Positions 3,545 through 23,849 of a stretch of DNA of 64,000 nt are shown piece after piece. Each line of letters begins with the position of its first letter. Positions within the stretch are counted from its first letter, which is position 1. Source of the stretch: Pseudomonas rhizosphaerae (GTDB taxonomy: Bacteria; Pseudomonadota; Gammaproteobacteria; Pseudomonadales; Pseudomonadaceae); the NCBI RefSeq assembly GCF_000761155.1, contig NZ_CP009533.1, positions 2,728,001-2,792,000 of the forward strand, written 5' to 3'. A program made the translations under genes and the position numbers. Below the pieces are notes generated by a model. That model did not search any database. It was not told where the DNA came from and saw nothing but the letters and a program-made list of their open reading frames with translations.

Positions 3545-3572
3545 TTGACATGCAAATGATAACGATTATTAT
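3545..3572 (+). promoter_or_regulatory. PrrF promoter with Fur box
   Basis: TTGACA (3545-3550) and TATTAT (3567-3572) are spaced 16 bp. The stretch from 3555 to 3572, AATGATAACGATTATTAT, resembles the Fur consensus GATAATGATAATCATTATC and overlaps the -10, so iron-loaded Fur would block transcription. Confidence 0.8.
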
Positions 3573-3579
3573 TGAGCTC

Positions 3580-3694
3580 AACCGGTCGAGAGATCGGTTG
3601 GATAATCCGAAGGGCCTTAGGTCGGACCTTCAGATTATCTCCTCATCAGGCTAATCACGGTTTTTGACCCGGCTTTTTGCCGGGTCTTTTTTTT
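3580..3694 (+). ncRNA. prrF: PrrF iron-responsive small RNA
   Basis: The RNA starts with a stem-loop (AACCGGTC/GATCGGTT), has a second stem closing with GATAATC/GATTATC, then the single-stranded core TCTCCTCATCAGGCTAATC that is the signature of Pseudomonas PrrF RNAs. It ends with the terminator GACCCGGC-TTTTT-GCCGGGTC plus eight T at 3666-3694. PrrF is known to repress iron-using genes such as sodB when iron is low, by base pairing. Only one copy lies here, unlike the P. aeruginosa tandem. Ends are estimated from the promoter and terminator. Confidence 0.9.
3666..3694 (+). terminator. Rho-independent terminator of PrrF
   Basis: Perfect 8 bp stem GACCCGGC/GCCGGGTC, five-T loop and an eight-T tail. 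Confidence 0.92.
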
Positions 3695-17594: not shown

Positions 17595-17668
17595 TGGAGG
17601 CCGAGGTCGGAATCGAACCGGCGTAGGCGGATTTGCAATCCGCAGCATAACCACTTTGCTACTCGGCC
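17595..17668 (-). tRNA. tRNA-Cys (GCA)
   Basis: The minus strand reads GGCCGAGT at the 5' end, the anticodon loop ATTGCAAA with GCA, a T-loop GGTTCGATTCC and an encoded CCA at the 3' end. The 74-nt length and paired acceptor stem fit tRNA-Cys. Confidence 0.97.
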
Positions 17669-17707
17669 CCAAAACGTGAAGCAAGAAACTGCTGCACGCA
17701 AACAAAC

Positions 17708-17783
<76 letters not shown>

Positions 17784-21738: not shown

Positions 21739-22182
21739 TCAACGGCCGAGAGCGGACAGGACATGCTCCATGCGCAGGAAGCTGTCCTGCTCGCCCACCA
21801 CTTCGAAACCATGGCGGCTGTAGAGGCGCTGCGCGGGATTGTCCTTGAACACCATCAGCCGTATTCGCGGCAAGCGCTCGCTACGTGCTTGCAGCGCCAC
21901 TTGCTCGAGCACCCACTGCCCCACGCCTTGGCCGCGATGCGCTGGCAGCAGATGCAACTCGCGGATGAACAAGGCATGGGCATCCCTGGAGAGGCTGATA
22001 TAGCCCAGCGGCAGCGTATCACGGCAGATCATTCGGTTGTCGCGCCAGTGCCAGGCCTGGTCGAAACCGGCGTCCAGCCACAGCAGGTCGTGCCGGGCGT
22101 AGTAAGGCAACATTGCCTGCCGAGTGAGGTCCCGGGCAAAGCGCAGATCCAGGTCGGCTGCCGGCCGCAGGTGCAATGTCAT
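21739..22182 (-). CDS. GNAT family N-acetyltransferase
   Basis: The 147-residue protein has the GNAT acetyl-CoA motif LHLLPAHRGQGVGQWVLEQV (LLPAHRGQGVG is the core) and the terminal fold element FKDNPAQRLYSRHGFEVVG. It acts on an unknown amine. The start MTLHLRPAADLDLRF at 22182 is the family-like choice; an extension to 22278 would overlap the aromatic leader ORF on the other strand. Confidence 0.85.
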   Translation of the reverse strand: MTLHLRPAADLDLRFARDLTRQAMLPYYARHDLLWLDAGFDQAWHWRDNRMICRDTLPLGYISLSRDAHALFIRELHLLPAHRGQGVGQWVLEQVALQARSERLPRIRLMVFKDNPAQRLYSRHGFEVVGEQDSFLRMEHVLSALGR

Positions 22183-22277
22183 AAGATCGTGGTCATCGAA
22201 TCGTCTCCACCTCAACAATGGGCTTGAATCCTTCACCACGGCTGAAGTAAGCTCCAGCCATCTATCGGAGACGCTCA

Positions 22278-22394
22278 ATGTCGCACAACACTTTCAGCCC
22301 TGCATCCTTGCCTGCGACCTGCGCAGCAATGACGGCTGTGTGTGCACCGGTAAACTTCTATTTTGGGTATTGGTTTAGCCACTGGCGCGCCTGA
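22278..22394 (+). CDS. Aromatic leader peptide 1 of the aroF attenuator
   Basis: An ATG at 22278 with GGAG 8 bases before it opens a 38-codon ORF. Residues 27-36 read FYFGYWFSHW, so seven of ten are Phe, Tyr or Trp. This matches leader peptides whose translation senses charged aromatic tRNAs. TGGGTAT within these codons (22364-22370) pairs with ATACCCA (22394-22400), and an intrinsic terminator follows 52 bases after the stop. The downstream gene makes the first enzyme of aromatic synthesis. I infer transcription attenuation. Confidence 0.72.
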   Translation: MSHNTFSPASLPATCAAMTAVCAPVNFYFGYWFSHWRA

Positions 22395-22404
22395 TACCCA
22401 TCTC

Positions 22405-22449
22405 GGCGCCCATTTCGTAGGGGTCGCCTGACAGAGAATTCTCAACCCC
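22405..22449 (+). promoter_or_regulatory. Candidate alternative stems of the aroF attenuator
   Basis: GGGGT (22420-22424) can pair with ACCCC (22445-22449), with GAGAATTCTC folded between. This would use the 5' arm of the terminator and prevent it forming. GGCG (22405-22408) and CGCC (22425-22428) offer a competing stem. Pairing is by eye only. Confidence 0.5.
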
Positions 22450-22482
22450 CGGTCGGCTCCCCGACCGGGGGTTTTTGCTTTT
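22446..22482 (+). terminator. Intrinsic terminator in the aroF leader
   Basis: CCCCCGGTCGG and CCGACCGGGGG form a perfect 11 bp stem with loop CTCC, followed by TTTTTGCTTTT. No other gene ends just upstream on this strand, so it most likely serves the leader ORF. Confidence 0.9.
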
Positions 22483-22550
22483 CAGGGTTTCACGCTTTAC
22501 CGCACATGATTTTTTTACCGGCACTTTCGCCACGAATCGAGGAACGCTTC

Positions 22551-22703
22551 ATGAACAGCTTCACTTATTACCGTTTCGACACTTGCGACTTCTGGCGATT
22601 TAGCAACCTCCGCTCGGGCCAGCCTGCCGCCTCCGACCGGTCGTTCATGGGTGGCATGACCCTCAATCCAGATTCCCCGACGCCTTGTCGAACACCTCGA
22701 TAG
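22551..22703 (+). CDS. Aromatic leader peptide 2 upstream of aroF
   Basis: A second short ORF of 50 codons has a strong site GAGGA 7 bases before ATG 22551. Its start, MNSFTYYRFDTCDFWRF, has four Phe, two Tyr and one Trp in 17 residues. It lies after the terminator and stops at the first base of a perfect hairpin (22703-22739) that reaches the aroF ribosome-binding site. It probably couples aromatic tRNA charging to aroF expression, possibly at translation. It could also be a small protein with its own role. Confidence 0.65.
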   Translation: MNSFTYYRFDTCDFWRFSNLRSGQPAASDRSFMGGMTLNPDSPTPCRTPR

Positions 22704-22739
22704 GACAGCGCAAGCGGGCAACCACCCCCGCCGCTGTCC
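22703..22739 (+). promoter_or_regulatory. Hairpin before the aroF ribosome-binding site
   Basis: GGACAGCG (22703-22710) and CGCTGTCC (22732-22739) are perfectly complementary; GCGGG and CCCGC can extend the stem inside. The base after it begins AGGA, the likely aroF ribosome-binding site, 9 bases before ATG. The leader 2 stop codon overlaps its first base. Confidence 0.6.
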
Positions 22740-22751
22740 AGGACCTTGATC

Positions 22752-23849
22752 ATGAACAACAGCCTGACCGCTCTGCACCGCACCACCCTCGTCCAGCCTC
22801 GCGCAGTGAAGGACGCCGCCAACACATCGGCAAGCCACCGCCTGCCCAGCCATTTCGCTCTCAAGCAGCAACTGCCCGTACCCGACCATTTGGCCGCACA
22901 GGTACACAGCCATCGCCAGGCCATCCGCGCGATCCTCGAAGGACGCGATCCACGCTTGTTGGTCGTGGTCGGCCCCTGCTCCCTGCACGACCCCAAATCC
23001 GCGCTCGAATACGCACGCAACCTGAGCCAGTTGGCGCAAGAGCTTGAGGGCGAGATGCTGCTGGTGATGCGCGCCTACGTGGAAAAACCACGTACCACCG
23101 TGGGTTGGAAAGGCCTGGCGTATGACCCGTACCTGGACGGCACCGATGACATGGCAGGTGGCCTGACGCTGTGCCGCGACCTGATGCGCGAAATGCTGAG
23201 CCTGGGCCTGCCGCTGGCCAGCGAAGTGCTGCAACCCATGGCCTCGGGCTATTTCGACGATCTGTTGAGCTGGGTGGCCATTGGTGCACGGACGACCGAA
23301 TCGCAGATCCATCGCGAACTGGCCAGCGGGCTCGGCATACCGGTCGGCTTCAAGAACGGTACCGACGGCGGCGTCGGCGTGGCCTGCGATGCCATGCGCA
23401 GCGCGGCCCACGCTCATCGCCATTTCGGTGTCGATCCGCAGGGGCATCCGGCGATGATCGACACGACCGGCAACCCAGACACTCACCTGGTGTTGCGTGG
23501 CGGGCACCGGGGCCCCAACTACGACCGGCAGAGCGTTGCCCAGGTGCACCACGACCTGGCCAAGGCAGGCGTCAAGGCGCGGATCATGGTCGACTGCAGC
23601 CATGCCAACAGCGGCAAGGACCCTTTGCGTCAGCCGGCAGTGTTCGACGACGTGCTGCAACAGCGCCTGGACGGTGATCGTTCGCTGGTGGCAGTCATGT
23701 TGGAAAGCCACTTGCAGGAAGGCAGCCAGCCGATCAGCGGGCACATGCGCTATGGCGTATCGGTCACCGATGGCTGCCTGGGCTGGGCGGCAACCGAGCA
23801 GTTGCTGCGCCAGGGCGCCGGACGCCTGCGCGGCGCTGCCGAAGTTTGA
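22752..23849 (+). CDS. aroF: 3-deoxy-7-phosphoheptulonate synthase (DAHP synthase, class I)
   Basis: The 365-residue enzyme condenses phosphoenolpyruvate and erythrose 4-phosphate, the entry step to chorismate, Phe, Tyr and Trp. Class I-alpha motifs are present: VVGPCSLHDP, RAYVEKPRTTVGWKG, GFKNGTDGGVGV and VDCSHANSGKD. E. coli AroF/G/H are about 350 residues. Two aromatic leader ORFs and a terminator precede it, pointing to end-product control of expression. Which amino acid inhibits the enzyme cannot be read. Confidence 0.95.
   Translation: MNNSLTALHRTTLVQPRAVKDAANTSASHRLPSHFALKQQLPVPDHLAAQVHSHRQAIRAILEGRDPRLLVVVGPCSLHDPKSALEYARNLSQLAQELEGEMLLVMRAYVEKPRTTVGWKGLAYDPYLDGTDDMAGGLTLCRDLMREMLSLGLPLASEVLQPMASGYFDDLLSWVAIGARTTESQIHRELASGLGIPVGFKNGTDGGVGVACDAMRSAAHAHRHFGVDPQGHPAMIDTTGNPDTHLVLRGGHRGPNYDRQSVAQVHHDLAKAGVKARIMVDCSHANSGKDPLRQPAVFDDVLQQRLDGDRSLVAVMLESHLQEGSQPISGHMRYGVSVTDGCLGWAATEQLLRQGAGRLRGAAEV

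Follow-up and report, generated by a model that had tools for sequence, protein, structure and literature searches.

The aroF gene of Pseudomonas rhizosphaerae, which encodes a class I 3-deoxy-D-arabino-heptulosonate 7-phosphate (DAHP) synthase, was analyzed together with its leader region in a stretch of 64,000 nucleotides (nt) of contig NZ_CP009533.1 (positions 2,728,001 to 2,792,000), which will be referred to as the window and in which all coordinates are counted. Two short open reading frames (ORFs), designated leader 1 and leader 2, lie upstream of aroF; Phe, Tyr and Trp codons are present in both of them, and an intrinsic terminator is located in between. This arrangement had been put forward in a preliminary description made from the DNA letters, and it was confirmed here. 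The two frames translate as 38 and 50 amino acids (aa), the perfect 11 bp terminator stem with a 4-nt loop and TTTTT was found in the sequence as well as by a terminator scan, and the aroF product was assigned as DAHP synthase by two profiles well above their cut-offs (TIGR00034, 431 bits, cut-off 173; NF009395, 510 bits, cut-off 343). The explanation we favour, to which we give a probability of roughly 0.55, is that both leaders sense aromatic amino acids and that leader 2 acts on the translation of aroF. The features of the locus are summarized in Table 1.

Table 1. Features of the aroF locus (SD, Shine-Dalgarno sequence)
Feature	Position	Strand	Basis
Promoter-like pair TTGAAT (22224-22229) and TAAGCT (22248-22253)	22224-22253	+	18-nt spacing; column conservation across aligned loci
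Leader 1 SD, GGAGA	22267-22271	+	sequence; GGAG conserved
Leader 1 ORF, 38 aa, ending in VNFYFGYWFSHWRA	22278-22394	+	aromatic codons inside 22356-22385
Rfam RF00627 (P15)	22352-22471	+	120 bits, E 4.7e-24
Predicted hairpin 1:2, TGGGTAT (22364-22370) with ATACCCA (22394-22400)	22364-22400	+	predicted fold; conserved columns
Predicted hairpin GGCGCCC with GGG.CGCC	22405-22428	+	predicted fold; conserved
Intrinsic terminator, stem 22446-22471 (11 bp, 4-nt loop), then TTTTT	22446-22476	+	sequence and terminator scan
Leader 2 SD, GAGGAA	22539-22544	+	sequence; kept in relatives
Leader 2 ORF, 50 aa, beginning with MNSFTYYRFDTCDFWRF	22551-22703	+	TGG CGA TTT at 22593-22601; stop TAG at 22701-22703
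Candidate hairpin GCCGCC with GGTGGC within leader 2, long form only	22626-22655	+	fold of 114 rows
Predicted GC hairpin between leader 2 and the aroF SD, including the final base of the leader 2 stop codon	22703-22739	+	-24 kcal/mol, z -5.94
aroF SD, AGGA	22740-22743	+	sequence
aroF, class I DAHP synthase	22752-23849	+	profile matches

Clustering of aromatic residues distinguished the two leaders from all comparable frames of the window. Among the 271 stop-ended frames (127 plus 144) with an SD-preceded start within their last 60 codons, only leader 1 and leader 2 encode at least five Phe, Tyr or Trp residues within any 10 residues. Since their total aromatic content is only mildly unusual (binomial P of 0.007 for leader 1 and 0.034 for leader 2), the case beyond chance rests on this clustering and on conservation. 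Conservation was analyzed in 121 loci of the genus, namely the window and 120 loci, each from a different genome, out of the 181 further genomes of the genus in which AroF was detected; 100 of these loci were picked by hand among the AroF matches listed and 20 were taken from matches to the Rfam family P15 (RF00627), leader 2 being unseen at picking. In addition, 13 further genera of the same family contributed 20 loci, all chosen from P15 matches, so that genomes without P15 are unrepresented among them. In the genus loci the ORFs, their aromatic codons and the stems were kept; the lack of conservation that the preliminary description had named as speaking against it was not encountered.

Leader 1 was found in all 121 genus loci as an ORF with an aromatic core of the GYW type at its end, FYFGYWFSH being the most frequent version, and with a length of 37-48 aa in 120 loci and one outlier of 147 aa produced by the rule for choosing the start. 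In the 118 loci carrying the exact GGGTATTGG anchor, the codons at positions -2 and -1 before it encoded Tyr or Phe without exception (106 Tyr and 12 Phe, and 102 Phe and 16 Tyr, respectively), the swaps occurring mostly by exchange between TTT and TAT, and GGG TAT TGG was invariant, GGGTATTGG being the anchor itself. The three loci without the exact anchor (L019, L056, L069) are outside this codon table, and their peptides still read FYFGYWF. Swaps restricted to aromatic residues are the pattern expected from selection on charged aromatic tRNAs. Neither leader peptide could be assigned to a family by Pfam and NCBIfam searches (E ≤ 1).

Attenuators of the trp, phe and his type are ribosome-mediated and consist of a leader ORF with codons for the end product, alternative hairpins and an intrinsic terminator, followed by the biosynthetic gene. 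All of these parts have counterparts upstream of aroF, where an SD-led short ORF with clustered end-product codons is separated from the biosynthetic gene by an intrinsic terminator and alternative hairpins are predicted. The stem columns of the terminator were near invariant in 107 distinct rows of the alignment, and the region 22475-22540 was poorly conserved. The pairing of TGGGTAT with ATACCCA named in the preliminary description was present in the predicted fold, and the second pairing it named, between GGGGT (22420-22424) and the 5′ arm of the terminator, likewise agreed with comparison and modelling, from which the support for the pairings is drawn.

Mutually exclusive structures depending on the position of the ribosome were obtained for leader 1 in equilibrium folding models. 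In these models, applied to 119 of the 121 loci, folding was carried only as far as the terminator loop, and an RNA start at +6 to +12 relative to the Gly codon mimics a ribosome stalled on the aromatic codons. Pairing of the terminator 5′ arm with upstream RNA amounted to 0.19-0.22 when the RNA started at -12 to 0 and rose up to 0.51-0.57 at +6 to +12. This shift was positive in 39 of the 40 loci used for a control with 200 shuffled spacers, with a mean of 0.35 compared to -0.03 (standard deviation 0.16) for the shuffles, 1% of which reached 0.35. Based on the comparative data and the folding models, leader 1 and the terminator very probably constitute an attenuator. A ribosome translating leader 1 would sense the charging of the Phe, Tyr and Trp tRNAs, and a response to all three aromatic amino acids is thereby suggested. 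If the ribosome ran through, TGGGTAT and ATACCCA would fold, the terminator would form and the P15 RNA would be released, whereas stalling on the aromatic codons would prevent the 1:2 hairpin, allow the 5′ arm of the terminator to pair upstream and let RNA polymerase read through.

The RNA that would be released has a counterpart in Rfam. The RF00627 match upstream of aroF covers the whole model with a score far above the gathering score of 70 and is the single match in its genome; it begins inside the leader 1 ORF, without covering the beginning of that frame, and does not extend into leader 2. Rfam files P15 as a gene of the small RNA (sRNA) class, unlike its position here as part of the aroF leader. 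Presence of the family coincided with that of aroF: among 199 genomes of the genus (own included), RF00627 was detected in 182, AroF (E ≤ 1e-130) in the same 182, and the same 17 were without both. At the family level, RF00627 was found in 87 of 119 genomes, which represent 14 of the 19 genera (E ≤ 0.001), 84 of the matches being above the cut-off, and at the level of the class in five of 229 genomes (E ≤ 0.01), namely the own genome, another member of its family and three further genomes. One of these three (G479) has leader 1, terminator and aroF; the other two matches were weak, and no convincing aroF match was found in their 3.1-kb loci. None of the 14 control genomes searched contained RF00627. 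Taken together, these data suggest that P15 arises by termination at the aroF attenuator, an interpretation that is new for this catalogued RNA and that derives from sequence comparison and modelling.

In a survey of 80 named loci among the matches listed (at least 119 stretches) and the G479 locus (L181), 81 in total, the terminator was present in 80, leader 2 with TGGCGATTT in 77 and aroF in 76. For five loci (L188, L212, L225, L239, L242) the available stretch ends less than 380 nt from the leader 1 core. One of them (L225), on a contig of a metagenome-assembled genome labelled Anaerolineaceae, carries the exact leader 1 core at a distance of 235 nt from the contig end; neither a terminator nor aroF was found in this stretch, which ends close to the core, and our guess is that the contig is perhaps a contaminant. 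On a metagenome contig labelled Alcanivorax (L220), the exact leader 1 core and the terminator are followed directly by aroF, without leader 2; this is a single-leader form or a misbinned contig. The G479 locus from another family likewise contains aroF and lacks the TGGCGATTT form of leader 2. These two loci, only two in number, point to the existence of a single-leader plan, and the doubling of the leader may be a feature of one family.

Leader 2 showed the signs of a translated frame. The 121 genus loci were anchored on TGGCGATTT after extraction, no locus failing, and the start was chosen by a rule favouring an ATG that is in frame and follows an SD-like match; in the window this frame extends back without a stop to another ATG, at 22506, and 22551 is the start that is preceded by GAGGAA and kept in relatives. 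All 121 loci contained TGG CGA TTT and, in the same frame, an ATG preceded by an SD-like match. The distance from ATG to TGG was a multiple of three in every locus (five lengths), and that from TGG to CGAAC, ranging from 33 to 99 nt, was in frame in 120 of 121 (11 lengths, 10 of them in frame), the exception being L017. In contrast to these distances, the gaps flanking leader 2 fell into all three frames (50/35/36 and 40/35/46). Column 13 of the leader 2 alignment was Tyr in 118 of 121 loci, encoded by TAT in 107 and by TAC in 11.

Outside the genus, the first SD-led ORF after the terminator was aromatic-rich in all 20 loci (four to seven Phe, Tyr or Trp among the first 20 residues; 28-38 aa in length), and TGGCG[ACT]TT was in frame in 17 of them; the leader 2 sequences of L157, L161 and L172 had diverged and were still aromatic-rich. 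A covariance model of the long form (R1) matched leader 2 with 127 bits, the next best match in the own genome scoring 20 bits, and found matches in 177 of the 199 genus genomes; the five P15-positive genomes that it missed (G075, G147, G164, G166, G177) carry a shorter form of leader 2. The long form contains a stretch conserved at the nucleotide level, TCGGGnCAGCCTGCCGCCTCCGnnCGGTC...GGTGGC (22614-22655), with Asp, Val or Glu at the nn codon, which the shorter form is without and which looks like an added RNA element. Seven short-form loci were omitted from the fold that gave the candidate GCCGCC/GGTGGC hairpin, the covariation of which is not judgeable because both arms are near invariant. 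Sequence comparison thus gives good support for leader 2 as a translated, aromatic-rich ORF, and that it serves as a sensor is, in our judgement, quite probable.

Some further features of leader 2 were noted. CGA, which makes up 7% of the Arg codons in the long ORFs of the window, occurs in leader 2 after the Trp codon in 121 of 121 loci (22596-22598 in the window) and near the stop in 120 of 121 (22689-22691); rare AGA codons are found near the leader 2 stop in some loci of other genera. TTTAGC closely follows the Trp codon in both leaders (TGG TTT AGC at 22371-22379, TGG CGA TTT AGC at 22593-22604).

Because the terminator lies upstream of leader 2, leader 2 cannot act on it, and the scan of 21900-23000 detected no second intrinsic terminator between leader 2 and aroF. 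The attenuator reading of the preliminary description is therefore supported in part, for leader 1 with the terminator, and leader 2 must act in another way, either on aroF translation or through Rho. The region between the leader 2 stop codon and the aroF SD was analyzed in 120 genus loci, L017 being excluded from the accessibility and hairpin folding sets because the reading frame of its leader 2 is shifted towards the 3′ end. A stop-to-SD hairpin was predicted with a mean of -21.6 kcal/mol (range -30.3 to -8.1) and a mean z of -3.3 against shuffled sequences. In 111 of the 120 loci the last base of the stop codon took part in the first pair of this hairpin, and in 114 no unpaired base was left before the SD match, although cutting the segment from the stop to just past the SD favours ends pairing there. 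The stop codon of leader 2 was TAG in 119 of 121 loci, compared to 16 TGA and seven TAG among the 27 long ORFs of the window, a preference that may be due to the pairing of its G in the hairpin. In the other genera a hairpin was predicted in 17 of 20 loci (-8.6 to -24.4 kcal/mol), one of them (L172) with a very different sequence; in the three loci without it, all of one genus, AGGA is located 3 nt past the leader 2 stop. The feature shared across loci is that the leader 2 stop codon and the aroF SD are brought together.

Three candidate roles of leader 2 were rejected. In the window itself leader 2 is in frame with aroF and the stretch between is free of stop codons, which had suggested a read-through or frameshift fusion to AroF; this was dismissed because the frames are spread over the 121 loci (40 in frame, 46 and 35 in the other two). 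Arrest peptides of the TnaC type keep a fixed spacing from the sensing Trp to the arrest site at the stop codon, and a TnaC-like arrest at the leader 2 stop was ruled out since the distance from TGG to CGAAC is not fixed. Base pairing between the Trp codon in leader 2 and the SD of aroF was inspected by eye and found to be broken in several loci.

In the two-sensor explanation that we favour, leader 2 would be translated on the read-through RNA, and its stop codon, lying against the aroF SD either directly or across the GC hairpin, would couple ribosome traffic on leader 2 to initiation at aroF. We consider an action on aroF translation somewhat more probable than one through Rho. The stop-to-SD geometry fits best with a handover of ribosomes from leader 2 to aroF, under which leader 2 would be a brake in severe starvation, so that the sign of its effect may be opposite to that of leader 1. 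Korolev et al. (2016) proposed that leader genes raise translation by reinitiation and noted that stalling at regulatory codons lowers the latter, according to part of their text (PMC4833913). In such leaders, as that part describes them, the leader stop codon likewise adjoins the start region of the structural gene (PMC4833913); the aroF leader differs in that the short distance is mostly achieved via the GC hairpin and in that an attenuator lies upstream.

Several observations weigh against this explanation. Covariation within the hairpin was weak: in an alignment (A2) of 37 of the 120 hairpins, from which L010 and near-duplicates above 0.90 likeness had been removed and L109 excluded for its very short hairpin, the basal helix was paired in 90.5% of the cells and the inner helix, as aligned, in 56.4%, and only three cells had both sides changed. 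The covariation score was reached by one of 500 shuffles but was exceeded when the 3′ side was slid by -1 or -3 columns, and the four-base basal stem had no covariation excess (2171 of 5000 shuffles reached it). With the hairpin open, about 50 nt separate the leader 2 stop from the aroF AUG, which is long for a handover. The predicted accessibility of the aroF SD remained at 0.39-0.47 no matter how much of the leader 2 sequence preceding the hairpin was removed, and it was slightly lower (0.32-0.35) only on cutting into the 5′ arm of the hairpin. For leader 1, the stop-codon position was ambiguous in the model (0.17 at +36 and 0.44 at +42), and longer upstream RNA (start at -60 to -24) left the terminator arm partly paired (0.40-0.50). 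Equilibrium folding of the 120 loci did not support leader 2 as a structure-switching translational attenuator hiding the aroF SD, and as regards control of transcription elongation by a second ORF through alternative stem-loops, no position-dependent switch of the SD or the hairpin was seen in folding.

Leader 2 might alternatively be a second transcription attenuator working through Rho, in a manner similar to mgtP of Salmonella: stalling on the aromatic codons would block Rho from stopping RNA polymerase before aroF. The accessible part of the mgtCBR study provides a precedent in tandem ORFs, the second of which senses an amino acid by its codons, and its authors raised Rho as a possibility (PMC3641672). 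The polarity would be right for a biosynthetic gene, and the part of leader 2 after TGGCGATTT is rich in C (across the loci, C averages 0.39 and G 0.24). However, an excess of C over G is seen in much of the leader as well as at the beginning of aroF, so that this stretch is not special, and a stall upstream would be expected to expose rather than hide a Rho utilization (rut) site in the 3′ half of leader 2. As folding gave no change of SD or hairpin with ribosome position and the stop-to-SD geometry is left unexplained, we regard control through Rho as unlikely. The same juxtaposition of stop codon and SD could also be accounted for if leader 2 were a plain coupling or polarity-protecting ORF that supplies ribosomes to aroF, in line with the reinitiation role proposed for short leader genes in the available text of PMC4833913, its aromatic codons being incidental. 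One would then hardly expect all 20 leader 2 peptides from the other genera to have retained their aromatic content, or column 13 to be kept as Tyr with synonymous change between TAT and TAC, and this makes incidental codons distinctly improbable.

P15 was reportedly named by Livny et al. (2006), who are said to have detected it by Northern blot in P. aeruginosa. Its Rfam class and name would suit an independent trans-acting sRNA, with the leader peptide as a by-product; a passage in PMC2375449 lists it among the sRNAs detected by Livny et al., and a riboswitch was suggested for it from synteny with the thiamine pyrophosphate (TPP) riboswitch in the portion available of PMC2527527. The Rfam scan of the window found no riboswitch family at the gathering score, the TPP riboswitch included, and the Phe/Tyr swaps, the constant position before aroF and the joint presence or absence with aroF speak against either role so strongly that we give them very little credence; P15 may have a trans role in addition to that in cis. 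That leader 2 is an untranslated open frame inside a conserved RNA element, as conservation of part of the long form at the nucleotide rather than the amino acid level (TCGGGnCAGCCTGCCGCCTCCGnnCGGTC, Asp, Val or Glu at the nn codon) might indicate, can practically be dismissed in view of its frame-preserving indels, its conserved SD and ATG, the synonymous Tyr change and the diverged yet aromatic-rich peptides of other genera.

Compared with attenuators of the trp, phe and his type, the aroF leader is unlike in having a second aromatic-rich ORF past the terminator, the stop codon of which lies against the SD of the gene. A likeness for this doubling is the tandem mgtCBR leader of Salmonella with mgtM and mgtP, for which the part of the study at hand describes ATP and proline as signals, a second ORF with Pro codons, and stem-loops unlike intrinsic terminators (PMC3641672). 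According to the same part, two consecutive short ORFs precede one operon there and the second senses charged tRNA by its codon content (PMC3641672); leader 2 likewise is a second ORF with codons of the sensed amino acids in the same leader. In the aroF leader, unlike mgtCBR, an intrinsic terminator accompanies the first ORF, and the two ORFs share codons for one set of three amino acids. The two-leader arrangement is thus a variant on known attenuators, and leader 1 with P15 is an added member of that kind. A search of titles and the beginnings of abstracts, with most subscription papers and supplements beyond reach, found no description of attenuation of a Pseudomonas DAHP synthase.

The columns of the promoter-like pair, the TAAGCT end of which sits 24 nt upstream of the leader 1 start, were conserved in most of the 121 aligned loci and weaker in L124, L126 and L133; a generic sigma-70 promoter scan of 21900-23000 found no promoter. 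Divergent from the aroF leader, an acetyltransferase-like ORF, named by eye, occupies 21739-22278 of the minus strand, its true start being probably further in, near 22182. Elsewhere in the window, a PrrF sRNA (Rfam RF00444, 163 bits) is located at 3545-3694 and two tRNA genes (RF00005) at 17598-17783 of the minus strand.

The analysis proposes a function in cis, open to test, for an RNA that is listed among the small RNAs, and it outlines a route by which pseudomonads could regulate DAHP synthase through leader translation. Tentatively, we suggest a family-wide leader in which two sensors of the same three amino acids act in series, the first on transcription termination and the second on translation, possibly with opposite sign, so that AroF synthesis would be confined to a certain range of aromatic limitation and P15 would be the RNA produced in the off state of the first sensor. 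Should leader 2 act on translation, the supply of these amino acids would be read twice on one mRNA at two levels, a natural case of layered feedback, and in the engineering of aromatic production in Pseudomonas both leaders would need handling.

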